Positions 25,351 to 44,382 of a stretch of DNA of 53,656 nt are shown here, in pieces. The position numbers and the translations under genes were made by a program. A model generated the notes under the pieces. It saw only the letters and a program-made list of their open reading frames with translations, ran no database searches and was not told the origin of the DNA. Position 1 is the stretch's first letter, and every line of letters begins with the position of its first letter. Source of the DNA: a virus; IMG/VR virus record IMGVR_UViG_3300042731_006363, positions 1 to 53,656 of that record; one strand, 5' to 3'.

Positions 25351-26892
25351 TTAGATTTTTTTATCGTTTTTTTTATTATTTTCAATCTCTTTATTCCTTA
25401 ATTGATAAAAAAATGTTTGATCGGTTAATTTTCTCATTATATCTTCATCTACTATTTCAAAATCGCTATCAAGTATATTCCCATATTTATCAATTCTTTC
25501 ATATGGTAGATCATTATGTTCTGCCCATCCATAAGGTAGATCAACATATTTTTGTAACTCTTTAACCAACCTTACTTTTCCTGAGAGTTCTTTTCCTTGT
25601 TCTGCTCTCTTTATATGTCCTAAAGCTTCAAATTCACTCATCATTTTTTCATTATCTATGGCAAGTATGCTTATAGTATGTATAACTTTCATATTATGAG
25701 ATTCTAAGTCTTGTTTTAAATCCAAAAGTCTTCTATAATTTAAATTCGCATCTTCAATAGATTCAACAGGCCCATCAACTATAATATTTGTTGTAAATGT
25801 ATTATTATTATAGTATTTTTTTAGGTTTTCATGTGCTTTCTGTATATCTTTCCATGTAATTCCTTTATTAAATTGCTTCAATGTAAAATCACTTGCACTT
25901 TCAAGTCCAATAGAAAACATATAAAAATATTTCATGGCTTTTTCGGCATATCTTTCATTTGCTAGTAATTTAATGCCTGATTGACATATAAATCTACATC
26001 CTCTATCAACAAGAGTACTAATTACTTTCTCTCTTTTTTTATTAAAATAAAGATAATCATCAGCAAAAAATATAGTATAACAATTTGTATTCCGGCATGT
26101 TTCCCATACAGCATCAATTATTTCTTCTGCCGATAAATTCTTTATGAAATCTATATCGTCAAGAACATTATACATACAAAACCTACATTTACCCCAAAGA
26201 CATTTGCTACTAAAGATTATACTTAAAACACCATTAGGCCAAACATATTCTTTAAATACATCAGAATCTATATGCTTATCCACTATTTTTTTAATTCTTA
26301 GCATTGGTTTTGTTCTTAGATAATCATTTTTAGCTAAATAAATATCTTCTAATCTCTCATTAGGTATACATGTATCTTTCCAACTTTTTACAATATTATA
26401 TAATTCTGTTCTAGGTGTAATTGTTCCTTTAATAAGAAGTAGGTTTTTAAGATTTTTTTCTTTAGTTCCCCAAAGGACAAATTTTTTTCTTGTATCTTCA
26501 AAACTATTCATATTCACTTCACATCCACCTGCCACAACTCTTACTCCTGCATTTAAAATTTTAGATATAATTGTAAAATCAAATTGAGACATGGAATAAA
26601 ATAAATAATCTCCTTTTATAGTATTCAACAAATCATCACTATATCTCTGAGCAATAACATGTTTTAAGAATTTCATATAACTACTCTCAAGATATCTTTC
26701 TTTACCCCTTTTCTCAACATTTAGAATTGTAGATTTAAGATATTTCAAAACTTTTGGTGGAATTGTTAATATAGCAGGTGAAAAACTATGATCAAACCTA
26801 TCATTATCCATTAAATTTTGTGTTAATGCTCTTGATGATAATGTTGAAAGAACAAATCCATTACCAACAGAGTCACTATATGTTACCTTCAT
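25351..26892 (-). CDS. Radical SAM protein with CX4CX2C motif
   Basis: A 513-residue protein. Residues about 1-200 form a Rossmann-like N-terminal region (VRVVAGGCEVNM) like the cobalamin-binding-type domains of radical SAM families. The cluster motif CLWGKCRFC (Cys 231, 236, 239) has CX4CX2C spacing instead of CX3CX2C and resembles the CWWG type of RiPP-maturase-linked radical SAM enzymes. Its paralogue is the gene at 28387-29889. It is the last gene of the island and overlaps the one before it by 4 bases. Substrate unknown. Confidence 0.75.
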   Translation of the reverse strand: MKVTYSDSVGNGFVLSTLSSRALTQNLMDNDRFDHSFSPAILTIPPKVLKYLKSTILNVEKRGKERYLESSYMKFLKHVIAQRYSDDLLNTIKGDYLFYSMSQFDFTIISKILNAGVRVVAGGCEVNMNSFEDTRKKFVLWGTKEKNLKNLLLIKGTITPRTELYNIVKSWKDTCIPNERLEDIYLAKNDYLRTKPMLRIKKIVDKHIDSDVFKEYVWPNGVLSIIFSSKCLWGKCRFCMYNVLDDIDFIKNLSAEEIIDAVWETCRNTNCYTIFFADDYLYFNKKREKVISTLVDRGCRFICQSGIKLLANERYAEKAMKYFYMFSIGLESASDFTLKQFNKGITWKDIQKAHENLKKYYNNNTFTTNIIVDGPVESIEDANLNYRRLLDLKQDLESHNMKVIHTISILAIDNEKMMSEFEALGHIKRAEQGKELSGKVRLVKELQKYVDLPYGWAEHNDLPYERIDKYGNILDSDFEIVDEDIMRKLTDQTFFYQLRNKEIENNKKNDKKI

Positions 26893-27932
26893 TTTACTCT
26901 CCTTACATATTTAGTATATAAATATAAACTTTTGAAATCTTTTATTTTTCCTTCGGAAAATAATCTTGAGCCGGGTTCAGGAACAATAGGCCCAATTCTA
27001 CAATGTTCTTCCCCAATCCTTTGAACCAAATCAGAAATATCATCATCAGGGAAATTATTTGCCAAATAAATTTTAAAATTAACTCTCTTTTTTCTTATAT
27101 AATCTATAGTTTCAAGTAGTTCATCATCAGAAAAAGGCATACCCTTATGTTTAAATCTTAGTTTCTCACCTATTCTTGGTGATATTGATATCTCTCCCTC
27201 ATCAAATGTCTCTGCAAATTTATCAATAAATCGTTTGTTTGGTAATCCCCAACAATCAAACATACATTTTATATCAAAATCAATAAGATTAAACAGGTCA
27301 ATATAATAGGGATTATCAGGATTAGGGTCAAAACTCACTAACCAAGTCTCTATTCCATAGTGTAATGCATTTCTTAATTCAGATATAGACTTTTCAAGGT
27401 CTAACCATATAGGTTCAGTCAACCCACAATTTTCCTGAACATCAACTCCACCACCACAATAGGTACAATTTACAGGACAACCTCTGCCCGGATTAAAAAC
27501 AAACAGCTTATTCTCAAGGTACTTCTCATAATTCCTAATGATTTCAAACTTTGAGTACTCCAATTCATTGATATCAACATGAATATGCATAAGTTTGGAT
27601 TGTAATATCTCTAATAATTGGGATTCTGCATATCCTTCTATCACATGATCTACAGGATAATTAAATAAGATATCCTCTGCAAAATATGTAGCTGTAAACC
27701 CACCAAGAATCTTTGTTCCTGATATCTCTTTGCATTTATCAATAACAACCGCACATTGATCATGCCAATGCAGGTCAAATAACACCGTTTCCTCATTGGA
27801 AAGGTCAATAGGGTCAATGCCATAGTGAATTATTTCGGCATCATGACCATATTTCTTAACCAAATTAGCTAATGGAATAAGGCCAATAGGCATTAACCAA
27901 GTTCTCTCTGTTGGAATATGCACAAATTTCAT
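26889..27932 (-). CDS. Radical SAM protein with B12-binding-like N-terminus
   Basis: A 347-residue protein. The N-terminal domain has TKILGGFTATYFAEDILF followed by VDHVIEGYAESQLLEIL, the usual layout of B12-binding radical SAM enzymes (I-x-G-G ... D-x-x-x-x-G-x-x-E). The cluster motif GCPVNCTYCGG gives Cys 152, 156, 159. The usual DxHxxG cobalamin motif is not evident, so cobalamin binding is unproven. It overlaps both neighbouring genes by 4 bases. Confidence 0.75.
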   Translation of the reverse strand: MKFVHIPTERTWLMPIGLIPLANLVKKYGHDAEIIHYGIDPIDLSNEETVLFDLHWHDQCAVVIDKCKEISGTKILGGFTATYFAEDILFNYPVDHVIEGYAESQLLEILQSKLMHIHVDINELEYSKFEIIRNYEKYLENKLFVFNPGRGCPVNCTYCGGGVDVQENCGLTEPIWLDLEKSISELRNALHYGIETWLVSFDPNPDNPYYIDLFNLIDFDIKCMFDCWGLPNKRFIDKFAETFDEGEISISPRIGEKLRFKHKGMPFSDDELLETIDYIRKKRVNFKIYLANNFPDDDISDLVQRIGEEHCRIGPIVPEPGSRLFSEGKIKDFKSLYLYTKYVRRVK

Positions 27933-28396
27933 CTTCTCTCCTTTACAGCAAAATAATTTTCTCCATATATTGACTTTACTTTACCAGTTACTATAAATCC
28001 ATTCTTTAGATAAAATCCTAAAGAATTTTCTCTAGGTATAGTCCAAATATACCTTTCTTTACTCTTTTTCTCAAACCATTTAACTAATTCTGTAGCTATG
28101 CCCTTCTTTCTATGGTTCTCATTAACCCATAATCCTCTGATTCTATAATAATCTATATTAGTTTTATATCCACTTTCAACACCTACTATTTTACTATCAA
28201 TAAAACAAGCAATATAAATAGGTTTCAAAATTTTTAGCTTTCCATCTTCACTAAGATATTCTAATGATTTATAACAATAATTCTTTTGAGTCCATAAATT
28301 TACTTTGCTGATTCCACATCCTTCATCAACATAAGTCTTCCATAAAATTCTCCAATAAGGAAGAATTTCTTCAAATTTTATTTCTCTTATATCCAT
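27929..28396 (-). CDS. GNAT-family N-acetyltransferase
   Basis: A 155-residue GNAT protein. The acetyl-CoA loop is in IRGLWVNENHRKKGIATELV, and FYLKNGFIVTG is the typical C-terminal strand. GNAT enzymes acetylate amines; beside a PLP aminotransferase it could acetylate an amino sugar made by that enzyme, as in dTDP-amino-sugar pathways. That link is inferred from context. Overlaps its neighbours. Confidence 0.82.
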   Translation of the reverse strand: MDIREIKFEEILPYWRILWKTYVDEGCGISKVNLWTQKNYCYKSLEYLSEDGKLKILKPIYIACFIDSKIVGVESGYKTNIDYYRIRGLWVNENHRKKGIATELVKWFEKKSKERYIWTIPRENSLGFYLKNGFIVTGKVKSIYGENYFAVKERR

Positions 28397-29889
28397 TTTG
28401 AAAATTCTCTTATCAATTCTTTATCAACAAAATATAAGTCAGACTCTAATCTCTCTCCATTCAAAAGATATCTAACTAATGGTTTATTGGTTTTCATATC
28501 GAATTTTTCTAAACTAATCCCTGATACCTTACTCATATAAAGATATAAAGCCCAAATACCTGTTAATGTTTCTAAATTAAATTCATCTTTTTTAGCTTCT
28601 CTTATAAGACCATCTTCAGAAATTAAGGTATTCATTGGAAGGTGTCTAAGTGATTTTAAATCAGGTTGAAATCCAATTCCATTCGATAATCCTTCCTTGG
28701 TAAATAAATCCTTTTTCTGTTTTATATAATTATAATTGTCTTTTATTATTTTTATTGCTTCATCTCTTGAATCTGTCACTATAGGTAAGTCTGCCATAAT
28801 ACATATTACAGGTCTTATTGTCTTACTCATATATCTTAACATATTATCAAAGGCAATCTCAATTTGATTGAAATCATATCCTTTATCAATAGCTCTTAAA
28901 GTATCTGTATTAGTATGCTCAAGTCCTATGAATGGGTCTATCTGAGCTTTGTTTAGAAAGCTTATATATTTTTCATTGAGAAGATGTATTCCTGTATAAA
29001 TACTTAGTTTATATCCTTCGTCTTTCAAAGCATACATAATTTTCTTGATTCTTTTTGAAGCTTTCATGTAACTATCGAAAAAATATATATTTTTGCTATC
29101 ATATAGATTTCCAAGAACCAAGATTTTCTTAACAACTTCTTCAGCACTCATGCCTTCTGTGAAATCTGTTACAGGCACACATGGAAAGGTACAATATTTA
29201 CATCTCCCCCACCAACAGGACGTGTTCAGCACTATTCCCAAATTGGTATTAAATAACCTATCATATATTTTCTTATTTTTTAAAGACCAATCATCCATAC
29301 AATCCCATATACTATTAAGATCATTAGATTGTATGATATGATCTTCCCATTTTTCATATATGCTCTTTATAGAAGTCGATTTATCAACATAACCCTGAAC
29401 TATACATAAGTTCTTTAGCTGTTCCTCTGTTGTTCCTAATTCTCTTAAACTGCTTCGAATACTTTCAATACCATAAATCAAAGTAACTGTTCCACCTAAA
29501 AGAATTCTTTTTCCTTTATCTAATAGAAGTTTTATCAATCTAAAGTCTTGAGCAAATGGAGCACTATAAAAAATAATATCAGTTTTTATTGAGTTTATTA
29601 TAAAATCATCAAGTTCCCCTGCTCCTACATAAAAATGTGGAAATCTACTAAAATTAGAAGTAGCTCCACCAACAGCATTATTAGTTAATATAGAATGAGA
29701 AGAATCAAGTTCTATTTTTATATCATTTCTAAATTTGGAAACTGCTTTTGCATAACAAAGCAAAGAAGCATCAAAAAATTCAATATTAAATCCTTCATTT
29801 TCTAATACTGTAGTAAGAACTCTTGTAGATATAGACCATCGAGTGAAGAATGACATTGGAGAAGACATATATGTTATTTTTTCTCTCAT
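28387..29889 (-). CDS. Radical SAM protein with CWWG-type CX4CX2C motif
   Basis: A 500-residue paralogue of the 25351-26892 protein: Rossmann-like N-terminus (KRILLGGTVTL), then CWWGRCKYC (Cys 225, 230, 233) with unusual CX4CX2C spacing, and a TIM-barrel domain (GLEHTNTDTLRAIDKGYD). Similar motifs occur in radical SAM enzymes linked to ribosomal peptide modification, but no small precursor is beside it. Overlaps both neighbours by a few bases. Confidence 0.75.
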   Translation of the reverse strand: MREKITYMSSPMSFFTRWSISTRVLTTVLENEGFNIEFFDASLLCYAKAVSKFRNDIKIELDSSHSILTNNAVGGATSNFSRFPHFYVGAGELDDFIINSIKTDIIFYSAPFAQDFRLIKLLLDKGKRILLGGTVTLIYGIESIRSSLRELGTTEEQLKNLCIVQGYVDKSTSIKSIYEKWEDHIIQSNDLNSIWDCMDDWSLKNKKIYDRLFNTNLGIVLNTSCWWGRCKYCTFPCVPVTDFTEGMSAEEVVKKILVLGNLYDSKNIYFFDSYMKASKRIKKIMYALKDEGYKLSIYTGIHLLNEKYISFLNKAQIDPFIGLEHTNTDTLRAIDKGYDFNQIEIAFDNMLRYMSKTIRPVICIMADLPIVTDSRDEAIKIIKDNYNYIKQKKDLFTKEGLSNGIGFQPDLKSLRHLPMNTLISEDGLIREAKKDEFNLETLTGIWALYLYMSKVSGISLEKFDMKTNKPLVRYLLNGERLESDLYFVDKELIREFSKWI

Positions 29890-30749
29890 ATCATATTCCT
29901 TACCTTAAAGAATGTCTCTATTTCATTACCACTCATTTTTCCTGCATATAATCTTGTGCATGAATCACATTTAGTTTGGAAACTGAAAGTTCTATTTGGA
30001 AATTTGCGTATCCTTTCTAAAAGATTATTCCTATTCAAGGGAATAGTTACTCCTTGTGACCTATGACAAAACATTATATTCTCATTTACCATATCAATAA
30101 CTGCCGTTTGATTAAATTTTTTACATAATGACCTTAGATTTTCTCTCTCATTTAGCCTTCCTCTGATAATATCTCTTGCTCCCTCTGTAACATTATCTAA
30201 ATTTATATTTTCTAATAGGTCTCTATACATAGAATCGTCTTTAATTCGCTTTCCTTCCATAGGAAATTCAAATTCCACATAATTAAACTCTATATGTTTG
30301 TTTTCATTAATAAAATCTATCATCTCCTGTACATTATCATGTACAATTCCCTTGTTGATGAATATTTCAGAATCTATGTAGTCCTTGACCTTAACTTTGT
30401 GTGGTTTCGGGTGAACATGCCATTGGATTTCTTTGATGAAGGGTCTTATTTCAGGGTCATGATGATATCCCTTGTCCATAAAAACACCATTTGTACTCAC
30501 AACAATCTTTCTGTTCAAAATCTTGAAGAAGTATCTTAATATTTCAGAGTTAAGTAATCCAACTTCACCACCTGCTATATCAATATGATACACAAATTGA
30601 TCAATTTGATTAATTATTTCAACAATATATGGTAAATGTGTCTCAAGAATAGACAAAGTTGTTGATTTCGGGTCTTTTATTTTAGGAAAATCACAATAAT
30701 CACATTTCCAATTACATTCTTCTGTAACTATAAAACAAAAACTAGGCAT
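29886..30749 (-). CDS. Radical SAM protein with C-terminal Cys pair
   Basis: A 287-residue protein. The cluster motif is ECNWKCDYC (Cys 12, 16, 19); the SAM-binding GGE is in DIAGGEVGLL. A C-terminal KCDSC pair with IMFCHRSQG may hold an auxiliary iron-sulfur cluster. It resembles the 31753-32607 protein (ELTGGEIGLI). The two flank the aminotransferase gene, suggesting one pathway. Substrate unknown. Confidence 0.77.
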   Translation of the reverse strand: MPSFCFIVTEECNWKCDYCDFPKIKDPKSTTLSILETHLPYIVEIINQIDQFVYHIDIAGGEVGLLNSEILRYFFKILNRKIVVSTNGVFMDKGYHHDPEIRPFIKEIQWHVHPKPHKVKVKDYIDSEIFINKGIVHDNVQEMIDFINENKHIEFNYVEFEFPMEGKRIKDDSMYRDLLENINLDNVTEGARDIIRGRLNERENLRSLCKKFNQTAVIDMVNENIMFCHRSQGVTIPLNRNNLLERIRKFPNRTFSFQTKCDSCTRLYAGKMSGNEIETFFKVRNMI

Positions 30750-31756
30750 TAGAAATCTCTCTTTATTATCTCACATATGATTTTAATTTTGTTTTCATCT
30801 AATTCATGATGCATAGGTAAATCAATTATTTCATTTCTAACTTCATTAGAAACTGGTAAATTTTCAATACATGGATAGTATCTATATCTATGTTCTATTC
30901 CAAATAAAGATAACTTTTTAGATATTTGTTCTGCTTTTGGATGTAAAAACATGATTGCTCCATGTCTATTAGTCGAACAATAATGTTCTTTAAATATATT
31001 TAAATGTTTACTATATTCATTATGTACTCTCTCCCTCATTTCTATGATTTCATCAGCATAATCAAATTGAGGAAGTAAATATGCTGCTAAAAATGAAGAC
31101 ATTTGAAAATTTAATGAAGTTGTTAAGTTATTATAATTTCCGATATATCTAAAATTCTTTAAATCATGATATAAGTCTTCATTATCTGTTACTATAACAG
31201 ACCCTTCCCCCGCACAAAAAGGCTTAGTTGGACTAAATGAAAACATTGCTACATCCCCAAATGAACCTGCTTTATCTTGTAAAATAGATGGAGCAGAATC
31301 CTCTATAAAGAGACAATGTTCATCCCCTATTATTTCCTTTATACCTTTTGCATTTCCAATCACACCATTACTTTCCACATGAACAACTGCAAGAGTTTCA
31401 TTTTTAAGATTTTTCCATAAATCTTCTAAATTCATACTTAAAGTATATCTTTGTATATCAATTGGAATTGGAATAAGACCTAAAACATTACATGCTTTAT
31501 ATGCAGCAGGATAACCATAATTTGGAATAATAACTTCTTTTCTATCAGGAAATTTTTTAGACCAAACATATAAACACATGAAGATTGAATTAGTTGTAGA
31601 ATTAGTTGCTAACCCATATTTCCTACCAACAAATTCTTCAACTCTACTTTCTAACTTTTGTAAAATACCTTCCTTCCAAAAATCCCAATCTTCAAGAAAT
31701 CTTCCTACATTTTCTAACCATTCTTTTTTCAAATTTGGTTTCACACGTTTAATCAT
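30749..31756 (-). CDS. DegT/DnrJ/StrS-type PLP aminotransferase
   Basis: A 335-residue PLP enzyme of the sugar-aminotransferase family. The PLP lysine is in SFSPTKPFCAGEGSVIVT; upstream are LATNSTTNSIF (phosphate binding) and FIEDSAPSILQ (Asp holding the pyridine nitrogen). These enzymes aminate NDP-keto-sugars. Its place between two radical SAM genes and near a GNAT supports amino-sugar synthesis. The ATG overlaps the preceding stop (ATGA). Confidence 0.88.
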   Translation of the reverse strand: MIKRVKPNLKKEWLENVGRFLEDWDFWKEGILQKLESRVEEFVGRKYGLATNSTTNSIFMCLYVWSKKFPDRKEVIIPNYGYPAAYKACNVLGLIPIPIDIQRYTLSMNLEDLWKNLKNETLAVVHVESNGVIGNAKGIKEIIGDEHCLFIEDSAPSILQDKAGSFGDVAMFSFSPTKPFCAGEGSVIVTDNEDLYHDLKNFRYIGNYNNLTTSLNFQMSSFLAAYLLPQFDYADEIIEMRERVHNEYSKHLNIFKEHYCSTNRHGAIMFLHPKAEQISKKLSLFGIEHRYRYYPCIENLPVSNEVRNEIIDLPMHHELDENKIKIICEIIKRDF

Positions 31757-32607
31757 TGTTCATAACTCCTATTTCTAAATTTACTTCTGTTCTTACCGTT
31801 ATCGAATGAATAACATCTCGCACAATAATTATTTTCATTCACACCATCCATAACTTTCTCTAAATTTTCTTTATTAAACTCATCTTTTAAAGACATTTTA
31901 ACATTCATAGCACAATGACCTAATTCTCTTGTTTGTAAGTCAACATATATGTTTGGTGGAAATCTTTGACATAATATCTTTTCATTCACCATATGTCTTT
32001 GAGGTTCAAGATAATGAATTAACATTTTTAAGAAGTATTCATTATCCAATCTTTTATATAGCTCAAATAAATCATTCCAATAGCTTTGAATAGTGTTATT
32101 TTCGAAATTTATAATTGTCTTATGATTCATTAATTTATAAAAAAAGTTATCTCTAAACATTCCTAATTCTCTAAAATACTTCCAATTAGCTAATAACGAT
32201 CTTGTAGTTGATTCAGTAGTAACTATCACATAAGTATGATCTTCTTGTAACCCCAAATCAGTATAAAATCTTATGATCTCTTTACCTTTGATTTCATAAA
32301 TTAAATGCTCCCAATATTCATCGAGTTCATCTATCCAATCTACTTTCTTTCTTAACAGTCCATTTGATAATGCTTTAATATAGTTTACATGAGGATGTTT
32401 TCTCACATTATAATAAAAATCATCAATGTTACTAATGAGTCCGATTTCTCCCCCTGTTAATTCAACAGCAAGATCATCAGGACATGTATCAAGCACATAA
32501 TTCAAAAAATCAATATCTACTTCTATATTATCAGTATTATTATTAGTAGTACAATAATAGCAATCCTTATTACATTTTTTTGTTCCCATTAACTGCATCC
32601 AATACAT
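31753..32607 (-). CDS. Radical SAM protein with C-terminal Cys pair
   Basis: A 284-residue protein: KCNKDCYYC (Cys 12, 16, 19), AVELTGGEIGLI for SAM binding, and a C-terminal CARCYSFDNGKN motif with CQRFPP upstream. It is close in size and layout to the 29886-30749 protein. The start overlaps the end of the preceding gene by 38 bases; no strong ribosome binding site is seen, so a downstream ATG (32586) is possible. Confidence 0.75.
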   Translation of the reverse strand: MYWMQLMGTKKCNKDCYYCTTNNNTDNIEVDIDFLNYVLDTCPDDLAVELTGGEIGLISNIDDFYYNVRKHPHVNYIKALSNGLLRKKVDWIDELDEYWEHLIYEIKGKEIIRFYTDLGLQEDHTYVIVTTESTTRSLLANWKYFRELGMFRDNFFYKLMNHKTIINFENNTIQSYWNDLFELYKRLDNEYFLKMLIHYLEPQRHMVNEKILCQRFPPNIYVDLQTRELGHCAMNVKMSLKDEFNKENLEKVMDGVNENNYCARCYSFDNGKNRSKFRNRSYEQ

Positions 32608-33631
32608 TATCTGTTTTATCTCCCCTTATTGGTTTAAATTCATTTATCCCCCAAACTTTTGCATAGCTGTACCATATCCCATCACATATCCTCAGATATT
32701 TACACGCTAAACACTTAGTTGAGTGATTTGCAACATGCTTGATGGATTTATGAAGGGCATTTATTTCAAGTTCCCATTTGTCTGTATGAAGATCAAGAGG
32801 ATGAATATCTCTATTGTGTCTTGCTTCTTCAAAAGCCCGAATTGTATACTCACTCCATTCATATTCATCGAATATTCTCTGAAGGTATCCTGCAATATAT
32901 TTTTCATAATTTTCGAATAAACAAAATGGAACATATCTTATCGCAATTTTAGTATCTCTATCAAGTATATCAATAGCTTCTTTAATATATGGTGCTATTT
33001 CAGAATAACGAACCATGTTTTCCTTTGTTGCAGAATTTTCCAATCTGAATGGAAGAAAATTAAAGGCAGTAGGTTTAATTAAGCCATTAGAAAAATTTGC
33101 TATATTCGGTAGGTCTTTATAATTATGATTTGTAACAACAACATTTATTCTAATTTTCATATCCATATAGACAGCATTAGAAATTGCTCTCATGAGATGA
33201 TCATATGAGCCATTTACACCTGTCATTGTATCATGAAGTTGTCTATTACTTCCATGAATAGAAAACAAAATTTCATTGAGTCCATCTAATTTACTGTGCA
33301 TCATAAATTCTGGATTTGCAAATTTATATCCGTTAGTTATACAAGCGATATTTCTAAATCCATAATTATTCTTCATATCTCTCAAAAGTTCTCTCCAATA
33401 TGGTAATATAGATGGTTCACCACCTGAAATATCCCAATCTTTTATACCATATCTTAAACCATGCTCTAATTGTTGATAAATTCTATCTCTTATATCAACA
33501 TGTTTCTTATTCTTATAAAAACAAAATCCACATTTAATATTACATGCATATCCTGTAAACAATCTTGTTCTTTTAGTTATTTCAGAACAAGGTTTTAAAT
33601 CTCTAAAATCCACAAAATTATATAGTTTCAT
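32570..33631 (-). CDS. Radical SAM/SPASM-like protein
   Basis: A 353-residue protein. YACNIKCGFCFYK gives Cys 30, 34, 37; DISGGEPSILPYW binds SAM. The C-terminus, CLACKYLRICDGIWYSY, is typical of a partial SPASM/twitch auxiliary-cluster region. The family spans peptide and sugar modifiers; nothing in the sequence decides which. Confidence 0.78.
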   Translation of the reverse strand: MKLYNFVDFRDLKPCSEITKRTRLFTGYACNIKCGFCFYKNKKHVDIRDRIYQQLEHGLRYGIKDWDISGGEPSILPYWRELLRDMKNNYGFRNIACITNGYKFANPEFMMHSKLDGLNEILFSIHGSNRQLHDTMTGVNGSYDHLMRAISNAVYMDMKIRINVVVTNHNYKDLPNIANFSNGLIKPTAFNFLPFRLENSATKENMVRYSEIAPYIKEAIDILDRDTKIAIRYVPFCLFENYEKYIAGYLQRIFDEYEWSEYTIRAFEEARHNRDIHPLDLHTDKWELEINALHKSIKHVANHSTKCLACKYLRICDGIWYSYAKVWGINEFKPIRGDKTDNVLDAVNGNKKM

Positions 33632-33633
33632 AA

Positions 33634-34587: not shown

Positions 34588-35630
34588 TTTTCTATTATTC
34601 TCCTATTTCCATTATCTATAGTATCATTGCAGTATAATTGACAAGCAAAATTAACCATCGTTCCAGGGTGTCTCGCTAAACAACCATTATATGGATTTCT
34701 ATACATAACAGGTTTATTAATATTCACAAAGAATGACCGATCTAAATCATCATCATGGGGAACCGATTCATCATTCATATGATCAAATACATGCTTAAAC
34801 ATTTTGGATTTTTCTACTATTTCATCCAATGGAGTATTTAAAACATTATGAAATTTTTCTTGTTCTTTAAAAAGTCTTCTCACAGAACTATTAGGATATG
34901 ATCTTTCTTTAAATCCAAAATGGCATCTCATAAAACAGCAAGGCCAAACCCCACCATTAACATCTATATAAACTCTTTCTCCCATGTGAAATCTACATAT
35001 TATATTTTTTGGTTTATCTTCTAAGAGTATATCTTCTTTGGTTTTTCCATATTCCTTTTTTGGTTTTCTATACTTCGAATTATAATACCTTGAATTTATA
35101 ATCCATGTTTCAGTACATCCCAAACTTTTTGATAGATTCTCTACTATTTCTCTCTGCCATTCATTATGCTCAAAAAGAATCATCTGCCATATAGCAGTTC
35201 CACCACCTGCTATGAATGCCTTTAAATTTTCGATTACTTTTAACCAACTTGTGTTTCTGTAATATTCATGAGTATTTTTAAGACCATCTAAAGCAAATAT
35301 AACTTGATCTCCTTCAGTCATTTTTTGGCCCAAATCATACCACCAATTTGAATTAAATCTTGATCCATTCGTATTCATCTCAAACCTTGACCCACTTGAC
35401 TTTATCATATTAATTATGGTGTCAATTTCAGGATGAAAGATAGCTTCACCCCTATTACAGCATAATTGTATATCCTTAATATCTTGTTGAATTATTTTTT
35501 CGATCCCTTCAATAGGAAAATCAATGTTGCCTTCCTTTCTTCCTGCTCTTTTTAATTCTTCTCTGAAACAAAAGAAGCAATTGCTGTTGCATCTTGTTGT
35601 AAGTCCAACTTGAACTGCCATAACTTTCAT
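34584..35630 (-). CDS. Twitch-domain radical SAM protein
   Basis: A 348-residue protein. I start at ATG 35630, 7 bases after a GAGG site and overlapping the previous stop as ATGA. The motif TTRCNSNCFFC (Cys 14, 18, 21) is followed by CCNRGEAIFHPEI, WWYDLG, FALDGLKNTHEYYR, and a GGVWPCCFMRC auxiliary-cluster region. It is clearly paralogous to the genes at 35627 and 37469 (same DGLxxTHxxxR, HNExQ and PCC order). Function unknown. Confidence 0.8.
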   Translation of the reverse strand: MKVMAVQVGLTTRCNSNCFFCFREELKRAGRKEGNIDFPIEGIEKIIQQDIKDIQLCCNRGEAIFHPEIDTIINMIKSSGSRFEMNTNGSRFNSNWWYDLGQKMTEGDQVIFALDGLKNTHEYYRNTSWLKVIENLKAFIAGGGTAIWQMILFEHNEWQREIVENLSKSLGCTETWIINSRYYNSKYRKPKKEYGKTKEDILLEDKPKNIICRFHMGERVYIDVNGGVWPCCFMRCHFGFKERSYPNSSVRRLFKEQEKFHNVLNTPLDEIVEKSKMFKHVFDHMNDESVPHDDDLDRSFFVNINKPVMYRNPYNGCLARHPGTMVNFACQLYCNDTIDNGNRRIIEN

Positions 35631-36547
35631 AAACATTCCTCATCAACTATATCATTAAATGTAGCTCTACATTTTTGATTACATCTAAATAAATATTTGT
35701 AGTTTTTATGTATCCACATATAATATCTAGAATCCATTATCTCCATAAATGAATTAAAATATAAATTAATGGATTTTGGGTCTCTTAAGTAATTAATTAA
35801 ATGCTGTGGATACCTAATATCTTCTTGAAAATGAGTTTTAAAGTTTCCTTTGTAGTTATCATCTGCCATAAAACAACAAGGTCTTATTTCTCCATCAATC
35901 GTTAAAACAAAACTTGGTTTTTCAAGATGTACACAATGAATTTTAGATTTTTTTTGTCTATTAATCTCATGTCTTGTTCTTGCTCCATTAGGTCTTTGTA
36001 GATTTTCATTAAATCCTCTTGATTTTCTAACCCATAATCTTTGAGTACCAATTGATTTTGTTAGTTTTCTAATATCATCAATTTGATGCTCATTATGTTT
36101 GAATTTTAAAAATTGACAAGTACTGAATCCACCTTTTTCATTAAAATGTTTTATATTTTCCACTATTTTATGGAAATTTGTACCAATTCTATGCATTTTA
36201 TGTGTATCTTCTAAACCATCTAAAGCATAAACAACTGTTCCGTTTCCATTTAACAAATCAGCTAATTCCCCCCACCATTCACTCCCATGAGCAGAAGCAT
36301 TTGTATGTATAGTAATCCAATTTCTATCAAACTGACTTACATACTCTATCAATTCGAATAGTTGTGGATAAAATATACAGTCTCCCTTATTACCCAACAG
36401 AAGCACATTCTTAATGTCATCAAATGGTAGCTTTTTAATTATATCAAGTTTAAGGTGCTTTGGTGTAAACTCCATATTAGTCCTGTTGCAAAATGGACAT
36501 TTTGCATTACAGTGGCTTGTGGTTTCTATATCTACGAACTCAAACAT
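35627..36547 (-). CDS. Twitch-domain radical SAM protein
   Basis: A 306-residue protein: TSHCNAKCPFC (Cys 13, 17, 20), LLGNKGDCIFYPQL, EWWGELADLL, YALDGLEDTHKMHR, KHNEHQ, then GEIRPCCFMADD and a final RCNQKC. It shares every one of these landmarks with its two neighbours. The auxiliary cluster site suggests redox chemistry on a substrate. Overlaps the genes on both sides. Confidence 0.8.
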   Translation of the reverse strand: MFEFVDIETTSHCNAKCPFCNRTNMEFTPKHLKLDIIKKLPFDDIKNVLLLGNKGDCIFYPQLFELIEYVSQFDRNWITIHTNASAHGSEWWGELADLLNGNGTVVYALDGLEDTHKMHRIGTNFHKIVENIKHFNEKGGFSTCQFLKFKHNEHQIDDIRKLTKSIGTQRLWVRKSRGFNENLQRPNGARTRHEINRQKKSKIHCVHLEKPSFVLTIDGEIRPCCFMADDNYKGNFKTHFQEDIRYPQHLINYLRDPKSINLYFNSFMEIMDSRYYMWIHKNYKYLFRCNQKCRATFNDIVDEECL

Positions 36548-37479
36548 TTATCAATATGCTCCATAATTTCATCATCTCTTTTCAGCCAAAGCTTTAACCA
36601 ATCATCTTTCATTGTATCTTTCCATCGGTAATAACCACCCGATTTAATATTCTCATATCCTTTATTGTAATAATGAACTTCTTTATTATAATAAACACAT
36701 TCAGGGATTAGTCTAGGAGTAGCATCTGAACCATCTTTATAAGGAATATAAATGAAATCTCTAAAAAGGCCCATAAATTCATCAACAGGTGGAATAATAA
36801 GCTCTACACCATCTAAATCATTCAACCATGCATAATAACCCTCATTTTTGTGTCCTGTATAAGCACCAAACTTTACATGTTTATATCCAAAGTACTTAAA
36901 TAAATCCATCATCCACTCCTTGGAGAACCTTCTTTCTACCAAAGAAAGATTTAGCATGTAATCATATTTGGTTATAGAATAATCTTTGGAAATATACCGA
37001 TCAAACAGAATTTTTTTTCGATAAGGCAACCAATTACATGAATCATCGTAATTATATATTCTCTCATCTGCAAGTACCAAGTGATTCTTGTAATATTTGT
37101 TCTGTTTCGGGTGAATATCAGGCCAATCTCCTAAACCAATATACCACTTTGCCGCTTGAATATTTCCGTTTTCTAAGAACCAATAGATTGCAGAATTAGT
37201 GGCACAAATCAATACATCTATAACTAATGGGTCTCTATAAAATTTATTTACAGTATGAGGAACAACTTCAATGTCTTTCCAAACTTTATTTTCAATTCTT
37301 TCATACTTATCTTGTAAAAGTTTAAGAACTTCTTCTCTTGAATGAGTAGTTATACATCTCCATTTAACATCACAAGTCTTAAAGACTTGTTTGACTCTAT
37401 AATAATACTCGAAATTATCAAAGAATCCCCCATGAACAATACATCTGTCATACATTAAAAAATATATTTTAGGTTTCAT
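36532..37479 (-). CDS. Glycosyltransferase-like protein
   Basis: A 315-residue GT-B-like protein. The C-terminal segment DATPRLIPECVYYNKEVHYY has the Pro-Arg-x-x-x-E-C layout also seen in the 39082 protein (DPHPRLFLECKFYGKK) and in the 39897 protein (DPFPHSVLEAVQTGKT), matching the donor-binding Glu region of GT-B enzymes. It lies between radical SAM genes and overlaps both. Donor and acceptor unknown. Confidence 0.62.
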   Translation of the reverse strand: MKPKIYFLMYDRCIVHGGFFDNFEYYYRVKQVFKTCDVKWRCITTHSREEVLKLLQDKYERIENKVWKDIEVVPHTVNKFYRDPLVIDVLICATNSAIYWFLENGNIQAAKWYIGLGDWPDIHPKQNKYYKNHLVLADERIYNYDDSCNWLPYRKKILFDRYISKDYSITKYDYMLNLSLVERRFSKEWMMDLFKYFGYKHVKFGAYTGHKNEGYYAWLNDLDGVELIIPPVDEFMGLFRDFIYIPYKDGSDATPRLIPECVYYNKEVHYYNKGYENIKSGGYYRWKDTMKDDWLKLWLKRDDEIMEHIDKCLSS

Positions 37480-39085
37480 AAAAAATCCTATCTAATGTCT
37501 TTGGTTGATCTTCATTACCTTTAACCATTATTCCACCACACATTTCATTGCATATGTGTAAGTTATTAAAATTGTCATATATATATTTAAAATATGGATT
37601 ATTTATAATATCATCAATATTATTATTATAAAGATTTATTTTATCTTTATTCTCATTGAATAATTCTTTAAGTTCAGTATAAGTAGAATGATTAATAAAA
37701 AAAGGAGCATAAAAAGATATATGACAACATGGATGAACATATCCACATACATCAATAGCTATACTTCTAAATGGTCTATTATCTCTTGATTTCCAATAGC
37801 AGTATTCTAATTTACTTCTTTTTTTTATTATATCATCTCTTGAGTTTATATTCTTAGGTTTGCCAAATTCAGAATTATAAGCATTTGAACGAATAACTTT
37901 AAACTCTTTACATCCTAATTTTTTAGCCAACTCAGAAGCTTTTTTAACTTGATGCTCATTATAATCAAATATTATATATTGCCATATAGCTTTCCCACCA
38001 CTTTCAATATATGTCACCATGTTATCAATAACTTTTTTGAAATTCGTATGTCTATATCTATAATGAGTATCTTCTAGCCCATCAATACCAAAGATAACAG
38101 TAACATTTGTCATTTTACCTAACTCTGTCCATATATTTTTAGCTCCACCATTTGTTGCTATTTCTACTTTTAAATATGGATTTTTTTTCAAGAATTCCAT
38201 AAGAGTTGGGTTATGAATAGCATCTCCAAATGAACCATTAAGAGATAAAAAATCTATTCTACTAGAAAAATGGTTTAATACATTTAAATCTAAATTTATT
38301 GAACCTATTTTTTTCATATCAAAATGTTCTCTAGTACAAAAATAACATTTTGCATTACATATGGTTGTACAGCAAACGGAAACTAAATTAAATCTTTTTT
38401 TAATAGTCTCCATTACTTTGTTGAATTCTTCATTAACTCTCTTTGTAAACAATCCTTTCCATTGTTCAGGTTTCGCATGTCTTATATGATGATAAATGTT
38501 TTTTCTTCTACCATTTATAACAACATCATTTAAATCTGTTGGATTAGAAACAGAAAATATACTATTCTTCCATGCTATATTTAATAAGTCTTCCATCCAT
38601 TCACTAGGAAATTCAAGAAATTTAAATATTTTAGTAAATAGTTCTAAATTATTATCAATTATTAGTTCTTCATATTTAACTTCAAGAAATTTAGGATTTT
38701 TCTCCCATGTTTGAATTTCTGAAATTGTAACCTTTCCTACATGATTCATCTCAAATATCAGTTTATCTTCTAAATTATCAATACTATTAATTTTTTCTTG
38801 ATATGACATTCCACCAAATTTTTGATTTGGTTTACTCAACCATTTTTCATTAGCTGTAGAATTATAAAAACATCCTGATATTATAATATCCCTAAAATCT
38901 CTAGTTAAATGTATTCCCCTATAATCATCATCTAAATTAAATTTTGAATCATCTTGAACCAATATATCGAAATCTATAGGATCATTATATTTAAATCTTA
39001 AACCAAACTTATCACAAACATCTTCAAATATGTTTCTCATCCATACTGAACCTGTCTTTCTATGTGTGCCAATCAACCTTTTCAT
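37469..39085 (-). CDS. Sulfotransferase-radical SAM fusion protein
   Basis: A 538-residue two-domain protein. Residues about 1-230 form a PAPS-dependent sulfotransferase: GTHRKTGSVWM (phosphosulfate loop), LTRDFRDIIISGC (3'-phosphate loop) and AKPEQWKGLFTKRVNEEFN at the end. Residues about 235-538 form a twitch-type radical SAM domain: TTICNAKCYFC (Cys 243, 247, 250), GSFGDAIHNP, GIDGLEDTHYRYR, and CGYVHPCCHIS. The join is in one open frame with no frameshift. I do not recall this fusion. It suggests that radical chemistry and sulfation act on one substrate. Confidence 0.82.
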   Translation of the reverse strand: MKRLIGTHRKTGSVWMRNIFEDVCDKFGLRFKYNDPIDFDILVQDDSKFNLDDDYRGIHLTRDFRDIIISGCFYNSTANEKWLSKPNQKFGGMSYQEKINSIDNLEDKLIFEMNHVGKVTISEIQTWEKNPKFLEVKYEELIIDNNLELFTKIFKFLEFPSEWMEDLLNIAWKNSIFSVSNPTDLNDVVINGRRKNIYHHIRHAKPEQWKGLFTKRVNEEFNKVMETIKKRFNLVSVCCTTICNAKCYFCTREHFDMKKIGSINLDLNVLNHFSSRIDFLSLNGSFGDAIHNPTLMEFLKKNPYLKVEIATNGGAKNIWTELGKMTNVTVIFGIDGLEDTHYRYRHTNFKKVIDNMVTYIESGGKAIWQYIIFDYNEHQVKKASELAKKLGCKEFKVIRSNAYNSEFGKPKNINSRDDIIKKRSKLEYCYWKSRDNRPFRSIAIDVCGYVHPCCHISFYAPFFINHSTYTELKELFNENKDKINLYNNNIDDIINNPYFKYIYDNFNNLHICNEMCGGIMVKGNEDQPKTLDRIFYET

Positions 39086-39900
39086 ATTAATTGTCTTATA
39101 ATTTCATCATCTTTATTTAATGTTCTTTCATGGAGTCCATTTTCTTCTATATCTTTATATCTAAACCAACTTCCATCTTTTATCTGTTTAGGATTTATAT
39201 AAAAAATCTTTTTTCCATAAAACTTACATTCAAGAAATAATCTTGGATGTGGATCAAACCACTTATCAGCATGATAATATAAATAATGAGTGAATTTTTC
39301 AAATAAATTTTCTTCATGTTTCGTTTTACTTTTAACTATAAATGGTAAGGGTATATTAAATCCTACTAAATTATGAAGGAAATCAAAATTACTATTTCTT
39401 GGTGAATTAACATAAGTGCCTTTCTTAACCTCACCAAGTTTCCTATACCGATCAAACAAACACTTCATTCTATAATCATGATCTTTATAATGAAATGGCA
39501 TCTCACCAAAATACTCCGCATTGTATAGTGATTTATCGTAATAAATTGAATCTGTATATTTCTCTGATATAACAAGTATTTTATTAGCTCTTAAAATCCC
39601 CCTTGTTTCGCTTATCGTAACATAATCCAATACTAAAATTTTATCAAAAGCTATACTTGGCAAACGATATTTAGATATAAGCTCTATATTTGTGACTGCT
39701 TTTTCCCATTCTCCTTTATAGAAGACATATCTATCAGAAAGAAGATTCTGAATTTTTCTTTTGAAACTATTGTTTCCATTTATAAACAATAATTTAAGTT
39801 CAGGATTATGTTCAAGTCCTGCTAAATAGTATTCTATAGCATTTATTGTTGAACCTGTCAATCTGAATGTAGGTACAACATAAAATAAAATTGCATTCAT
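39082..39900 (-). CDS. Glycosyltransferase-like protein
   Basis: I start at ATG 39900 (MNAILFYVVPTFRLTGSTIN), 4 bases after a strong AAGGAGAAG site; a longer frame begins inside that site. About 272 residues. The N-terminus is a GT4-type opening, and DPHPRLFLECKFYGKKIFY near the end is the donor-binding region. The start overlaps the previous stop (ATGA) and the end overlaps the fusion gene (ATGA). Confidence 0.65.
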   Translation of the reverse strand: MNAILFYVVPTFRLTGSTINAIEYYLAGLEHNPELKLLFINGNNSFKRKIQNLLSDRYVFYKGEWEKAVTNIELISKYRLPSIAFDKILVLDYVTISETRGILRANKILVISEKYTDSIYYDKSLYNAEYFGEMPFHYKDHDYRMKCLFDRYRKLGEVKKGTYVNSPRNSNFDFLHNLVGFNIPLPFIVKSKTKHEENLFEKFTHYLYYHADKWFDPHPRLFLECKFYGKKIFYINPKQIKDGSWFRYKDIEENGLHERTLNKDDEIIRQLI

Positions 39901-40787
39901 AAAACTTCTCCTTGTATCCATTCATACAAGTTTTTGTATCTATTCATACTTATTTTATAATTCCAATCACAATCAAATACTTTTTTATAGAAATTCTTGA
40001 AATTTGAGGCAGTTAAAGGTTGATCTTTATTAAGATTATCAGTCATTGGATAATAATTTTCATGCCAATGAATTATATCTTTTAAATCATCAATTCCATC
40101 CTTATGTGTTCTTTCTATTTTAGGAAAAATTATGGTCTTACCTGTTTGTACAGCTTCTAATACAGAATGTGGAAATGGGTCTACAAAATATCTTGAAGTA
40201 GGATAAAAATAATGTGTTATTTCACTAAAAAATTGCACATTATCATTTGTATGGTTATAATGCAAAACATTAGGATGGTTTTCTATTTCAGGAGAAGGGT
40301 CTCCCATAATTGTTACATTAACTTTAAATCTTTTAAAATTATTTAATATATCTATAAAACAATCAAAAGAATCAGGAGTTAACCATTTTCTTACATAAAA
40401 TCCCCAAGTTTCTTGTTTTGGATAATTTTCTTGAACAGGAAAATCAGTTATCATAGGAATGTATCTATCATATCCCTTATGTTCCTTAAAATAATAAAAT
40501 CCATTTGTACAATTTTCATACAATGGATTAAGAAACTTTGCTCTGAGATAAAATAGATGATTAATTTTGCGTAGTTTAACAAAATTAACCTGTTGATTGT
40601 AGCATCTTGGAACTTGTGTTCTAAATATTAATCTCTTGTACCGATCATTTAAATCCTCTAATTTAAGAAATTTTCTATCATCTTTAAATTCACAATATTC
40701 TTTGTGCTCATCGCAAAATCTCTTTGATATATGATATCCCCCTCTACCAAGAGCACCAAATCTATGACCTATTATTAGATACTTCAT
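39897..40787 (-). CDS. Glycosyltransferase (GT-B)
   Basis: A 296-residue protein. DPFPHSVLEAVQTGKTIIFP near residue 210 is the classic GT4-like E-x-hydrophobic donor site (with a D-x-F-x-x-S-V-L-E motif). Upstream is NVTIMGDPSPEIENHPNVLHYNHT, typical of the second Rossmann domain. It is the best supported of the glycosyltransferases here. Sugar and acceptor (DNA, capsid or lipid) unknown. Confidence 0.75.
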   Translation of the reverse strand: MKYLIIGHRFGALGRGGYHISKRFCDEHKEYCEFKDDRKFLKLEDLNDRYKRLIFRTQVPRCYNQQVNFVKLRKINHLFYLRAKFLNPLYENCTNGFYYFKEHKGYDRYIPMITDFPVQENYPKQETWGFYVRKWLTPDSFDCFIDILNNFKRFKVNVTIMGDPSPEIENHPNVLHYNHTNDNVQFFSEITHYFYPTSRYFVDPFPHSVLEAVQTGKTIIFPKIERTHKDGIDDLKDIIHWHENYYPMTDNLNKDQPLTASNFKNFYKKVFDCDWNYKISMNRYKNLYEWIQGEVL

Positions 40788-40792
40788 ACATA

Positions 40793-41401
40793 TTAATTAA
40801 TTAACCATCCTTTATTGGATTCAATAACATCTTTTAATTCCTCATCTGTTTCTGCATCATCAATTTCTCTGAAATATTGTTTTATATTTCTATATTTTCT
40901 CATCATTTTCTCAAAGGTATCTTTAGTCTCAAGAAATCTTTCTAGTTCTGATATGAGATATTCGTTTCCTGTTTCAATAATCGAAAGATAAACTTCCTCT
41001 TTCTTATCAGGATCAAAAATATTAAACCCACCTGCTTGAAGTTTGGCTGATATAATAAAAAACTCAAACATATCATATGCATTGATTAATGCAGTATAAG
41101 CAGAAATTCTTTGTTTAGCTTTTGCTTTCACCGATGATTTTTTCATCGCAAGTGTATCTGGTTCTTTTATTTCAAAATCATCTAATGGAATATCTTTACT
41201 TTTAGGATTATCAGCCAATTCTTTTTTAATAGTAATAAGCTTTCCATTATTTAATTCATATTTTAATTTCAATGCAACTTGATTTGGTAATGCGATATAT
41301 TTAGCATTAGGTAAAATATATTTAGCATCAGAAAATATGATATTATTAATTTGATAAAATTCACCGAACTCTGATATCTGAGCATTAAAAACTGAAGGCA
41401 T
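40793..41401 (-). CDS. Hypothetical protein, 202 residues
   Basis: A protein with a beta-rich N-terminal part (INNIIFSDAKYILPNAKYIA) and a helical, charged C-terminus. An AAGGGGG site precedes it. It lies between the Cys-rich protein and the first glycosyltransferase. I do not recognise a family; a structural or virion protein is possible because the neighbouring gene has virion-like repeats. Confidence 0.6.
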   Translation of the reverse strand: MPSVFNAQISEFGEFYQINNIIFSDAKYILPNAKYIALPNQVALKLKYELNNGKLITIKKELADNPKSKDIPLDDFEIKEPDTLAMKKSSVKAKAKQRISAYTALINAYDMFEFFIISAKLQAGGFNIFDPDKKEEVYLSIIETGNEYLISELERFLETKDTFEKMMRKYRNIKQYFREIDDAETDEELKDVIESNKGWLIN

Positions 41402-41426
41402 AACAATTTCCCCCTTTTAACAATCT

Positions 41427-42002
41427 TTATGGATAATATGTTGAATAATAATCATCTGAAGGACATTCACCATTACAACCGCAATCAGAAGGATCACAAT
41501 TACAATGTGAATCACAAATACATACATTTCTAGTTTGATTTATTTTTGTTTGTAAATCTGCAATAGCCACTGCATATATAACACTAGTTATAGGATTAGA
41601 AGCTTGATCTACAAAACTTCCAGTAACTAAAACACCATAACCAGAATCATTAGTGACTTCATTATTAGCATCTTTAACATCATCATAATCTTGAGCACGA
41701 ATTATTTCACCTGCTTCCCCACCTGAAAACCCATATGATGAAAAATCATTATTTGTACATGCTAAATCACCCGGTGTATGGAGTGAACAAAGAGAAGGTT
41801 CAGAAGCATTAAATCTCCTACCTGAATCATTTCTTTCATTATCTATAGCAGATTCTAATTCTCTTAAATGAGATGCTAAAATTATTGTTCCTATACCTAT
41901 GCTTGTAAAACTGAAACTATTAGAACATGCAGGAACATGACCTGTACATAAAGTATTGGAAGCACAATCATTTGTGCAAATTGCATTACATGTGCAAGGC
42001 AT
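41427..42002 (-). CDS. Cys-rich protein, candidate radical SAM substrate
   Basis: A 191-residue protein with 15 Cys: six in the first 26 residues (CTCNAICTNDC then more), two in the middle, and seven in NVCICDSHCNCDPSDCGCNG and just after. The tail ends YYSTYYP. The middle has two copies of a phage-structural type segment (ASHLRELESAIDNERNDSG and RAQDYDDVKDANNEVTNDSG). The gene starts 4 bases after the SPASM radical SAM gene, the layout of a maturase and its peptide. I infer Cys-based crosslinks (thioethers); a metal-binding or disulfide-rich virion protein is the alternative. Confidence 0.7.
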   Translation of the reverse strand: MPCTCNAICTNDCASNTLCTGHVPACSNSFSFTSIGIGTIILASHLRELESAIDNERNDSGRRFNASEPSLCSLHTPGDLACTNNDFSSYGFSGGEAGEIIRAQDYDDVKDANNEVTNDSGYGVLVTGSFVDQASNPITSVIYAVAIADLQTKINQTRNVCICDSHCNCDPSDCGCNGECPSDDYYSTYYP

Positions 42003-42006
42003 AATA

Positions 42007-43140
42007 TTACTCCTTTAATAGAGACCTCATCGAAGCACCTATTTTACCAACTAATTTATAATATTCACATAAATCCCTTTGAGCAGGATAATCGAACCAT
42101 CTTTCTTTAAAGGTCTCTTTGTTGCTTTCCTCATATTTTTTCACATTGCACCTTAAACAAGATGTTGCAACACACAATCTGCATTCATTAGGTTCAATAT
42201 AGTTATTATAAAAGAATTTATTAGCGTTCTTAATACTATTTATAAAATTTTTACTAAAAATATTCGTATATTTAAGCTCATTGGAACATTTTGAATAAAT
42301 TGCTCCATGACAATAAAATACATTTCCATCTGTATTTATAACTGCCATGCTTTTTCCTGTAGCACAAAAAGCTCTATTAAACTTAAAAATATTAGATAAA
42401 TAATATCCATATTTTTTATAAAATTTTATTTCTTTCTGAGCTACTTTAATAAGAGATTCTTCAACAATTTTTTTATATTTTTCAAATTGAACATCATAAT
42501 AATCAACAGTTAGTGCATATCTAATTTTTTCTCCAAATATTTTATGTAGATCATCAAAATCATCCCATGCTTGAGGTAACATATGATAACAATTCCAAGG
42601 CATAGTAGCTTTTAAACCAAAATCAATTCCCCATTGATTTAATTGAGTCATTGCATTAATAGCTATTTTTGATGTTGATCTATCTTTTTTATCTTTTCTG
42701 TTAATATCATGAATTGGATTACCGTCATATGATACTTGAACAGTAACTTTAGGTGTTTTTTTTATAAATCTTTTCTTCTTAAGTTCTCGTAAGATATCAA
42801 TTAAATTATGTATTTTAGAACCATTTGTATAAATAAAAAAACAAACTCTTTCGTCATACATGAAAGCATTCATTAAATTTCTACATAAACCTAAATTCAA
42901 AGTAGGTTCACCACCCCAAAGAATTAATTTAATTCCAGAATATTGTTCTTTAAACCAATTAGCTTGAAATAGTTCATCAACTCTATCTTGAATAATTGAA
43001 GCTGTTAAAACTTTTTCTGTAGGAATATGATTTCTTTCAAAACAATATTTACAATTCCAATTACATGCTTCTGTTGTGGTGATTTCTAATCCAAAAACAC
43101 CCTTTTCTATTTCACAATCCCTCTTTGATTCTTTCTTCAA
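42007..43140 (-). CDS. Radical SAM/SPASM maturase-type enzyme
   Basis: A 377-residue protein. TEACNWNCKYC gives Cys 26, 30, 33; LILWGGEPTLNLGLC is the SAM-binding GGE. The SPASM region has FCATGKSMAVINTDGNVFYC (a GX4C unit) and ECRLCVATSCLRC, enough for two auxiliary clusters. This set is typical of peptide and protein modifiers such as anSME and RiPP maturases. It is directly upstream of the Cys-rich protein, its likely substrate. The start overlaps the previous gene end. Confidence 0.82.
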   Translation of the reverse strand: MKKESKRDCEIEKGVFGLEITTTEACNWNCKYCFERNHIPTEKVLTASIIQDRVDELFQANWFKEQYSGIKLILWGGEPTLNLGLCRNLMNAFMYDERVCFFIYTNGSKIHNLIDILRELKKKRFIKKTPKVTVQVSYDGNPIHDINRKDKKDRSTSKIAINAMTQLNQWGIDFGLKATMPWNCYHMLPQAWDDFDDLHKIFGEKIRYALTVDYYDVQFEKYKKIVEESLIKVAQKEIKFYKKYGYYLSNIFKFNRAFCATGKSMAVINTDGNVFYCHGAIYSKCSNELKYTNIFSKNFINSIKNANKFFYNNYIEPNECRLCVATSCLRCNVKKYEESNKETFKERWFDYPAQRDLCEYYKLVGKIGASMRSLLKE

Positions 43141-43306
43141 AGTTCTTTACCTCTTTTTCGAGTTCTTCATCTATCTCAATTTGATTTTTAAATTCCTCTG
43201 CTTTATCTAGTAATTCAATTGCATATTCAGAATCAATAGGTTTAACAAACTTCGCCGCTTCAACTAATGCTAATGATGCATTATATAACAATGTATTTCT
43301 AATCAT
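43112..43306 (-). CDS. Small helical hypothetical protein
   Basis: About 64 residues from ATG 43306 (MIRNTLLYNASLALVEAAK) with an AGGAGA site. A longer frame from 43348 would run through tRNA-Gly, and its extra residues are just translated tRNA, so I reject it. Helical, amphipathic, ending in an acidic coiled coil that overlaps the radical SAM gene start. It may open the 18-kb operon. Function unknown. Confidence 0.6.
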   Translation of the reverse strand: MIRNTLLYNASLALVEAAKFVKPIDSEYAIELLDKAEEFKNQIEIDEELEKEVKNFEERIKEGL

Positions 43307-43318
43307 AATATCTCCTAG

Positions 43319-44304: not shown

Positions 44305-44309
44305 ATAAG

Positions 44310-44382
44310 AGCCACTATTCCGATTCGAACGGAAGACCTGATGCTTACAAGGCAACTGCTCTGCCAACTGAGCTATAGTGGC
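44310..44382 (-). tRNA. tRNA-Thr (anticodon UGU)
   Basis: On the minus strand: perfect acceptor GCCACTA/TAGTGGC, D-arm GCTCAGTTGGCAGAGC, anticodon loop CTTGTAA (one T-T mismatch in its stem), T-arm with TTCGAAT. CCA is not encoded. Five bases from tRNA-His; its first base overlaps the epimerase stop. Confidence 0.94.

Follow-up and report, generated by a model that had tools for sequence, protein, structure and literature searches.

What a phage might do with ten radical S-adenosylmethionine (SAM) enzymes is the question raised by a 53,656-nucleotide stretch of viral DNA (IMG/VR record IMGVR_UViG_3300042731_006363, positions 1 to 53,656; hereafter the window), where the genes for these enzymes are packed together with genes of sugar-modification type and a gene for a cysteine-rich (Cys-rich) protein. 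The 53.7-kb record represents a T4-related myovirus in which terminase, head-tail adaptor, major capsid, scaffold, protease and portal genes were recognised, and whose major capsid protein displays about 33% identity to relatives in cyanophages and other T4-superfamily phages. Between the portal gene and a stretch carrying tRNA, epimerase and RNA-ligase genes, 18 minus-strand open reading frames run from 43140 to 25351 with intergenic gaps of only -38 to +25 bases, so that they apparently form a single operon. The tight packing described in an earlier note on this DNA was thus borne out; of its nine radical SAM proteins, the multiplicity stood but the count did not, since there is a tenth gene at 42007-43140, here called RS_J (the others being RS_A to RS_I; Table 1). 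The analysis suggested, with a probability of roughly 0.6, that the locus is a phage post-translational modification system, similar to those of ribosomally synthesised and post-translationally modified peptides (RiPPs), for a Cys-rich tail-fibre-like virion protein that is decorated with glycan by means of a swappable gene cassette.

The first piece of evidence came from RS_J and its neighbour. RS_J begins directly with the radical SAM domain, and the gene of the Cys-rich protein lies directly downstream of it. In an alignment of 11 phage RS_J homologues, the three radical SAM and seven SPASM cysteines were all invariant, and the spacing of the latter (CX12GX4C, CX2CX4CX2C, C) was close to the canonical auxiliary-cluster pattern (C-X9-15-G-X4-C, CX2CX5CX3C, C); against the SPASM profile TIGR04085 the score was 19.8 bits, below the cut-off of 27. 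The best NCBIfam match of RS_J was the PapB ranthipeptide maturase (NF047865), of which it is not a member, as it reached 73 bits against an equivalog cut-off of 340. The PapB profile matched all 11 homologues as well as 18 of 18 partner maturases of the Cys-repeat proteins described below, and the SCIFF maturase profile also matched every one of these 18. Whereas a phmmer search of the PDB with the single RS_J sequence gave no match, the RS_J profile matched entry 5wgg, which we take to be the SCIFF maturase CteB, at an E value of 7.5e-20 over most of the RS_J length. Because RS_J and the partner maturases resemble the PapB and SCIFF maturase profiles and 5wgg, thioether formation is the leading guess for their chemistry, and RS_J most likely makes thioether cross-links on the adjoining Cys-rich protein. 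That protein shows 62% identity to the C-terminal domain of a 409-amino-acid protein of the related record G001, and four cysteines were invariant in a 28-member alignment of its family. In the RS_J homologue of G001 (L009/L088), an intein interrupts the radical SAM CxxxCxxC motif at its third cysteine. A small gene before the Cys-rich protein gene was considered as a RiPP recognition element (RRE), a candidate left unsupported by the lack of a Pfam match.

An enzyme-independent test was performed by scanning IMG/VR for DNA encoding CxCNCNYC, a scan that is biased to this motif; the counts on Cys-repeat proteins given in this and the following paragraphs refer to the matches listed. In-frame matches fell in phage proteins made of tandem heptads with the consensus CTC(N/D)CNY, present in 3 to 28 copies per protein at a spacing of 7 or 8. 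At least 40 unique proteins of 140-530 amino acids were found, 24 of 40 with an SDxRLK-type motif like that at the start of S74 chaperones; Pfam recognised Peptidase_S74 in at least three of the Cys-repeat proteins, and several family members matched PHROG tail-fibre and virion-structural profiles. A same-strand radical SAM gene was located no more than 3 kb upstream in 26 of the 30 in-frame loci with at least 1.5 kb of upstream DNA, compared with none of the 39 loci whose match to the pattern lay outside an open frame (Fisher p 4e-15). At the level of records, whose controls were shorter on average, a radical SAM gene was present in 33/35 against 0/36; the two records without one were short fragments sharing one identical Cys tail. 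The loci include near-duplicates, with 30 distinct tails. This result bears on the possibility that the Cys repeats are metal-binding or disulfide-forming elements and that the radical SAM genes raise fitness by serving anaerobic host metabolism. Cys-rich repeats could indeed bind iron or zinc, and the radical SAM module of the Campylobacter phages CP220 and CPt10, where clusters of five radical SAM genes occur with an amidinotransferase gene, was read as a metabolic benefit (Timms et al. 2010, PMC2853527). However, radical SAM genes accompany in-frame Cys-repeat proteins and not chance DNA matches, and the immediate neighbours of the Cys-repeat genes are peptide-maturase-like, which makes this explanation improbable. 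A secreted RiPP-type product, such as a bacteriocin or a signal, would agree with the RiPP enzymes among the maturase relatives and with the Cys-rich substrates typical of ranthipeptides; it is less probable still, given the length of the family members, their S74 chaperone domains and fibre or virion PHROG matches, and the fact that no exporter appeared among the profile matches of the neighbouring genes.

Some further features of the family were observed. Fibre diversification is suggested by L155 (4685-7282) and L173 (7389-9455), in each of which a single operon encodes a tandem series of three to four paralogous Cys-heptad proteins whose N-termini vary. In L234 (8459-9409), the Cys-repeat protein is followed by an intein/hint-like segment (CFPAGTRVLMEDG). 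A stricter Cys-heptad pattern gave 5 matches in 257 Gb of cellular genomes, and the system is thus found mostly in virus contigs. The pattern occurs together with radical SAM genes on contigs of metagenome-assembled genomes in L240, L242 (Thermoplasmata) and L243 (Chloroflexi); these are possibly phage contigs binned with their hosts, and may hint at who the hosts are.

The arrangement seen in the window turned out to be recurrent. In unrelated contigs, among them records of 174 and 281 kb, RS_J homologues are directly followed by a gene for a protein with a Cys-rich C-terminal tail (L109, L110/G036, L111, L113 and L114), L112 being the exception. The order in the informative loci, which is that of the window too, consists of one to three maturases, the Cys protein or proteins, the small gene u40, homologues of the glycosyltransferase-like genes 36532, 39082 and 33634 and more radical SAM genes, with DegT and epimerase genes occasionally among the distal ones. 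Where 4 kb or more of downstream DNA was available (21 loci), all three downstream classes (u40, glycosyltransferases and radical SAM genes) were present at 12 loci, and L003 has u40, two glycosyltransferase genes and radical SAM genes downstream of an S74 fibre end. The gene-neighbourhood comparison that the earlier note had proposed therefore showed operon families recurring in the same order in unrelated phages, which excludes a chance origin of the gene set. Close relatives, by contrast, differ in this region. A capsid-protein search of IMG/VR retrieved 80 related loci, many of them fragments, and the longer records contain from none to seven radical SAM genes. G001, whose major capsid protein is 95% identical, carries the epimerase gene, an RS_J homologue (60%), a Cys protein homologue (62%), a pre-portal gene and the portal gene, and a counterpart of 25351-41401 is missing from this one relative. 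At the cassette position, G002 and L010 carry RS_F, RS_E, DegT and RS_D/E-like genes and L015 carries RS_A, GNAT and RS_B; relatives whose major capsid proteins are 94-95% identical either lack the multi-radical-SAM block or have a different one. Because G001 keeps the pair alone while G002, L010 and L015 differ, RS_J and the Cys protein were taken as a stable pair and the rest as exchangeable cargo, and the swapping of this block between close relatives fits genes that diversify a surface structure.

The content of the cassette makes a sugar-modification component of the operon plausible, on the basis of the glycosyltransferase pair 36532/39082, the nucleotide-sugar-type aminotransferase and the nearby epimerase. 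The StrS-type aminotransferase, the GNAT and the sulfotransferase domain announced by the earlier note were all found, with the E values listed in Table 1. Its four glycosyltransferase-like genes fared unevenly: none of the four had a Pfam match; a GT-B fold is predicted for the pair 36532/39082, and 33634 and 39897 share with the 36532 family just a C-terminal glycosyltransferase-like motif (hhalign probability 83 and 21). The fold was seen by fold search alone, as a PDB profile search with the 36532 family gave no match; the top Foldseek matches of the 36532 AlphaFold2 model were mostly GT-B enzymes, consistent with each other and weak (best E 2.4e-3). These genes, together with the aminotransferase relatives, the GNAT and the epimerase, are what would be expected if radical SAM sugar chemistry made an unusual sugar whose glycan coats DNA, capsid or host surface, the Cys protein being incidental. 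This possibility was judged unlikely, because the core of maturase and Cys protein persists without the cassette, the core enzymes resemble peptide maturases, whose best-characterised members act on peptides and not on sugars, and the profile scans made here recognised no gene for the hypermodification of DNA bases, for which reason DNA hypermodification was given low weight. The glycan foreseen by the earlier note consequently survives as a plausible sugar component, whereas DNA or the host surface is an unlikely destination for it: the Cys-rich protein and its adjacent SPASM maturase, which that note had passed over, form the stable core and point to a virion protein.

The nine cassette radical SAM enzymes are more diverse than the core maturases. 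Of the ten radical SAM genes of the operon, eight have the motif CX3CX2C and two (25351 and 28387) CX4CX2C; eight pass the PF04055 cut-off of 29.5 bits, the other two (31753 and 37469) keeping the motif at 21.5 and 22.9 bits. RS_G, RS_H and RS_I are SPASM-like. RS_C is also weakly B12-like, and no relatives of it were found in IMG/VR. As for u40, the fold search with its AlphaFold2 model (predicted local distance difference test score, pLDDT, 86) gave no confident match, so that a role as fibre chaperone is unproven; it is possibly a fibre-associated factor. According to the mechanism proposed, RS_J would act on the cysteines of the 41427-42002 protein to form thioether cross-links, and the cassette (u40, the GT-B enzymes, the aminotransferase, the acetyl- and sulfotransferase and the nine radical SAM enzymes) would build and attach a variable unusual glycan; alternatively, the cassette might make further modifications on the same Cys-rich protein. 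Directly visible in the sequences are the genes present, the pairing of RS_J with a Cys protein in different phages, the missing cassette of one relative, the recurring gene order and the fibre- or virion-like domains of the family; the substrate, the chemistry, the glycan and the presence of the window's Cys protein in the virion are inferred.

Several observations weigh against this interpretation. The Cys protein of the window is a divergent member of its family, lacks heptads and had no match of its own in the PHROG search. All maturase profile matches with readable cut-offs lie below them. No RRE peptide-recognition domain was found, the Pfam scan of small neighbouring genes being empty. 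For the radical SAM enzymes of the cassette, neither a sugar-specific nor a peptide-specific role can be clearly assigned. L209, L139 and L236 have a maturase and a Cys protein with no glycosyltransferase-like gene downstream, and in CP220 the radical SAM/glycosyltransferase cassette lies about 90 kb away from the RS_J homologue, so the adjacency of cassette and maturase is not universal. The broader proposal is that a widespread class of phages uses RiPP-type chemistry to make a structural part of the virus: a fibre-like protein built from Cys heptads would be cross-linked by dedicated radical SAM maturases, after which a swappable cassette would glycosylate it. The odds for this appear about even.

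Table 1. Features of the operon and flanking landmarks (positions in the window).
Feature	Position	Strand	Evidence
Portal protein, landmark downstream of cassette	23337..24911	-	phrog_213 E 9e-95
RS_A, radical SAM with CX4CX2C, paralogue of RS_C	25351..26892	-	PF04055 E 8e-13; 28% identical to RS_C
RS_B, radical SAM with B12-binding-like N-terminus	26889..27932	-	TIGR04190 53 bits, cut-off 500
GNAT acetyltransferase	27929..28396	-	PF00583 E 4e-11
RS_C, radical SAM with CX4CX2C, weakly RiPP C-methyltransferase-like	28387..29889	-	TIGR03975 30.5 bits, cut-off 282
RS_D, small radical SAM	29886..30749	-	PF04055
DegT/DnrJ/EryC1/StrS aminotransferase	30749..31756	-	PF01041 E 1e-42; PDB relatives including WbpE and perosamine synthetase
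RS_E, small radical SAM	31753..32607	-	CX3CX2C; PF04055 below cut-off
RS_F, radical SAM, HxsC/MoaA-like	32570..33631	-	NF038332 83.5 bits (cut-off 500); phrog_27238 E 3e-55
Possible glycosyltransferase, TTG start	33634..34587	-	weak similarity to 36532 family (E 9e-6, 49 columns)
RS_G, radical SAM/SPASM	34584..35636	-	profile searches
RS_H, radical SAM, SPASM-like	35627..36547	-	profile searches
GT-B-like glycosyltransferase	36532..37479	-	AlphaFold2 predicted TM-score (pTM) 0.81; Foldseek
RS_I, sulfotransferase domain fused to radical SAM/SPASM	37469..39085	-	PF00685 (Sulfotransfer_1) E 7e-10; PF04055 below cut-off
GT-B-like glycosyltransferase, paralogue of 36532	39082..39921	-	paralogy
Glycosyltransferase-like protein	39897..40787	-	motif similarity only; homologue in L005 cassette
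u40, follows Cys/fibre protein in most relatives	40793..41401	-	downstream of 19/27 unique Cys-repeat proteins
Cys-rich virion-like protein, 15 Cys, proposed substrate	41427..42002	-	divergent relative of CTC(N/D)CNY-heptad fibre-like phage proteins
RS_J, SPASM radical SAM, candidate maturase of adjoining Cys-rich protein	42007..43140	-	PF04055; NCBIfam
NAD-dependent sugar-nucleotide epimerase/dehydratase	44382..45569	-	PF01370 E 7e-25
RNA ligase/tail-fibre attachment catalyst homologue, near core pair	45532..46638	-	phrog_562 E 1.5e-40

Outside the operon, the epimerase is also kept in the cassette-less G001, where it is 71% identical. The window contains four phage tRNA genes (Ala, Gly, His and Thr; 13082-13158, 43318-43392, 44227-44303 and 44309-44382), and the large subunit of ribonucleotide reductase (50987-53521) has intein-type motifs in the middle of the protein, an apparent intein-like insertion.

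If the interpretation holds, phages would apply radical chemistry to their own structural proteins, the surplus of radical SAM genes long noted in Campylobacter and other phages would be explained, and a new substrate class would be added for peptide-modifying enzymes, namely very long Cys-repeat proteins with up to 28 heptads; it would also suggest ways in which fibres might be hardened or diversified. Because the cultured phages CPt10, CP21 and IBB_35 carry the core genes, the system is testable now.

A search of the open-access literature on phages and radical SAM enzymes in connection with tail fibres, RiPPs or Cys repeats gave no relevant prior description, and the combination of radical SAM enzymes, glycosyltransferases and a Cys structural protein is apparently a widespread phage system not described before. 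The statement of the earlier note that no phage pathway with this content had been described was too strong, given the published radical SAM clusters of CP220 and CPt10, although the 21-bp repeat within the CPt10 Cys-heptad gene gp145 and the radical SAM surplus were noted there separately and left unlinked (Timms et al. 2010, PMC2853527). These phages (Firehammervirus) resemble the window in having a swappable radical SAM block in a T4-related phage, and the CP220-type module holds homologues of RS_D, RS_F, RS_G/H/I and the glycosyltransferase 36532, the CP220 record showing two nucleotide-diphospho-sugar transferase-like genes within the cluster; the module differs by its amidinotransferase and by the distance between cassette and maturase. 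In CPt10, the gene after gp145 is gp144, which encodes the tail-fibre attachment ligase, and the RS_J homologue comes next; the window shares such a ligase near the core pair (45532). In the PapB/CteB ranthipeptide (SCIFF-type) systems, a SPASM radical SAM enzyme likewise adjoins a Cys-rich substrate, as is proposed here, and the profile similarity extends over most of the maturase; in contrast, the phage enzymes score far below the family cut-offs, no RRE was found, and the substrate is a short leader-core peptide there and a candidate fibre-like protein with heptads in the phages. The CXXX-repeat system (TIGR04115, whose profile matches 9/11 RS_J homologues and 18/18 partner maturases) also has a maturase facing a tandem Cys-repeat target, whereas the phage repeat is CTC(N/D)CNY and occurs mostly in virus contigs. 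Finally, Cys heptads with linked maturases are, to our knowledge, not part of the known families of S74-chaperone tail fibres, to which the phage proteins are alike in that several of them end in Peptidase_S74 or match fibre PHROGs.

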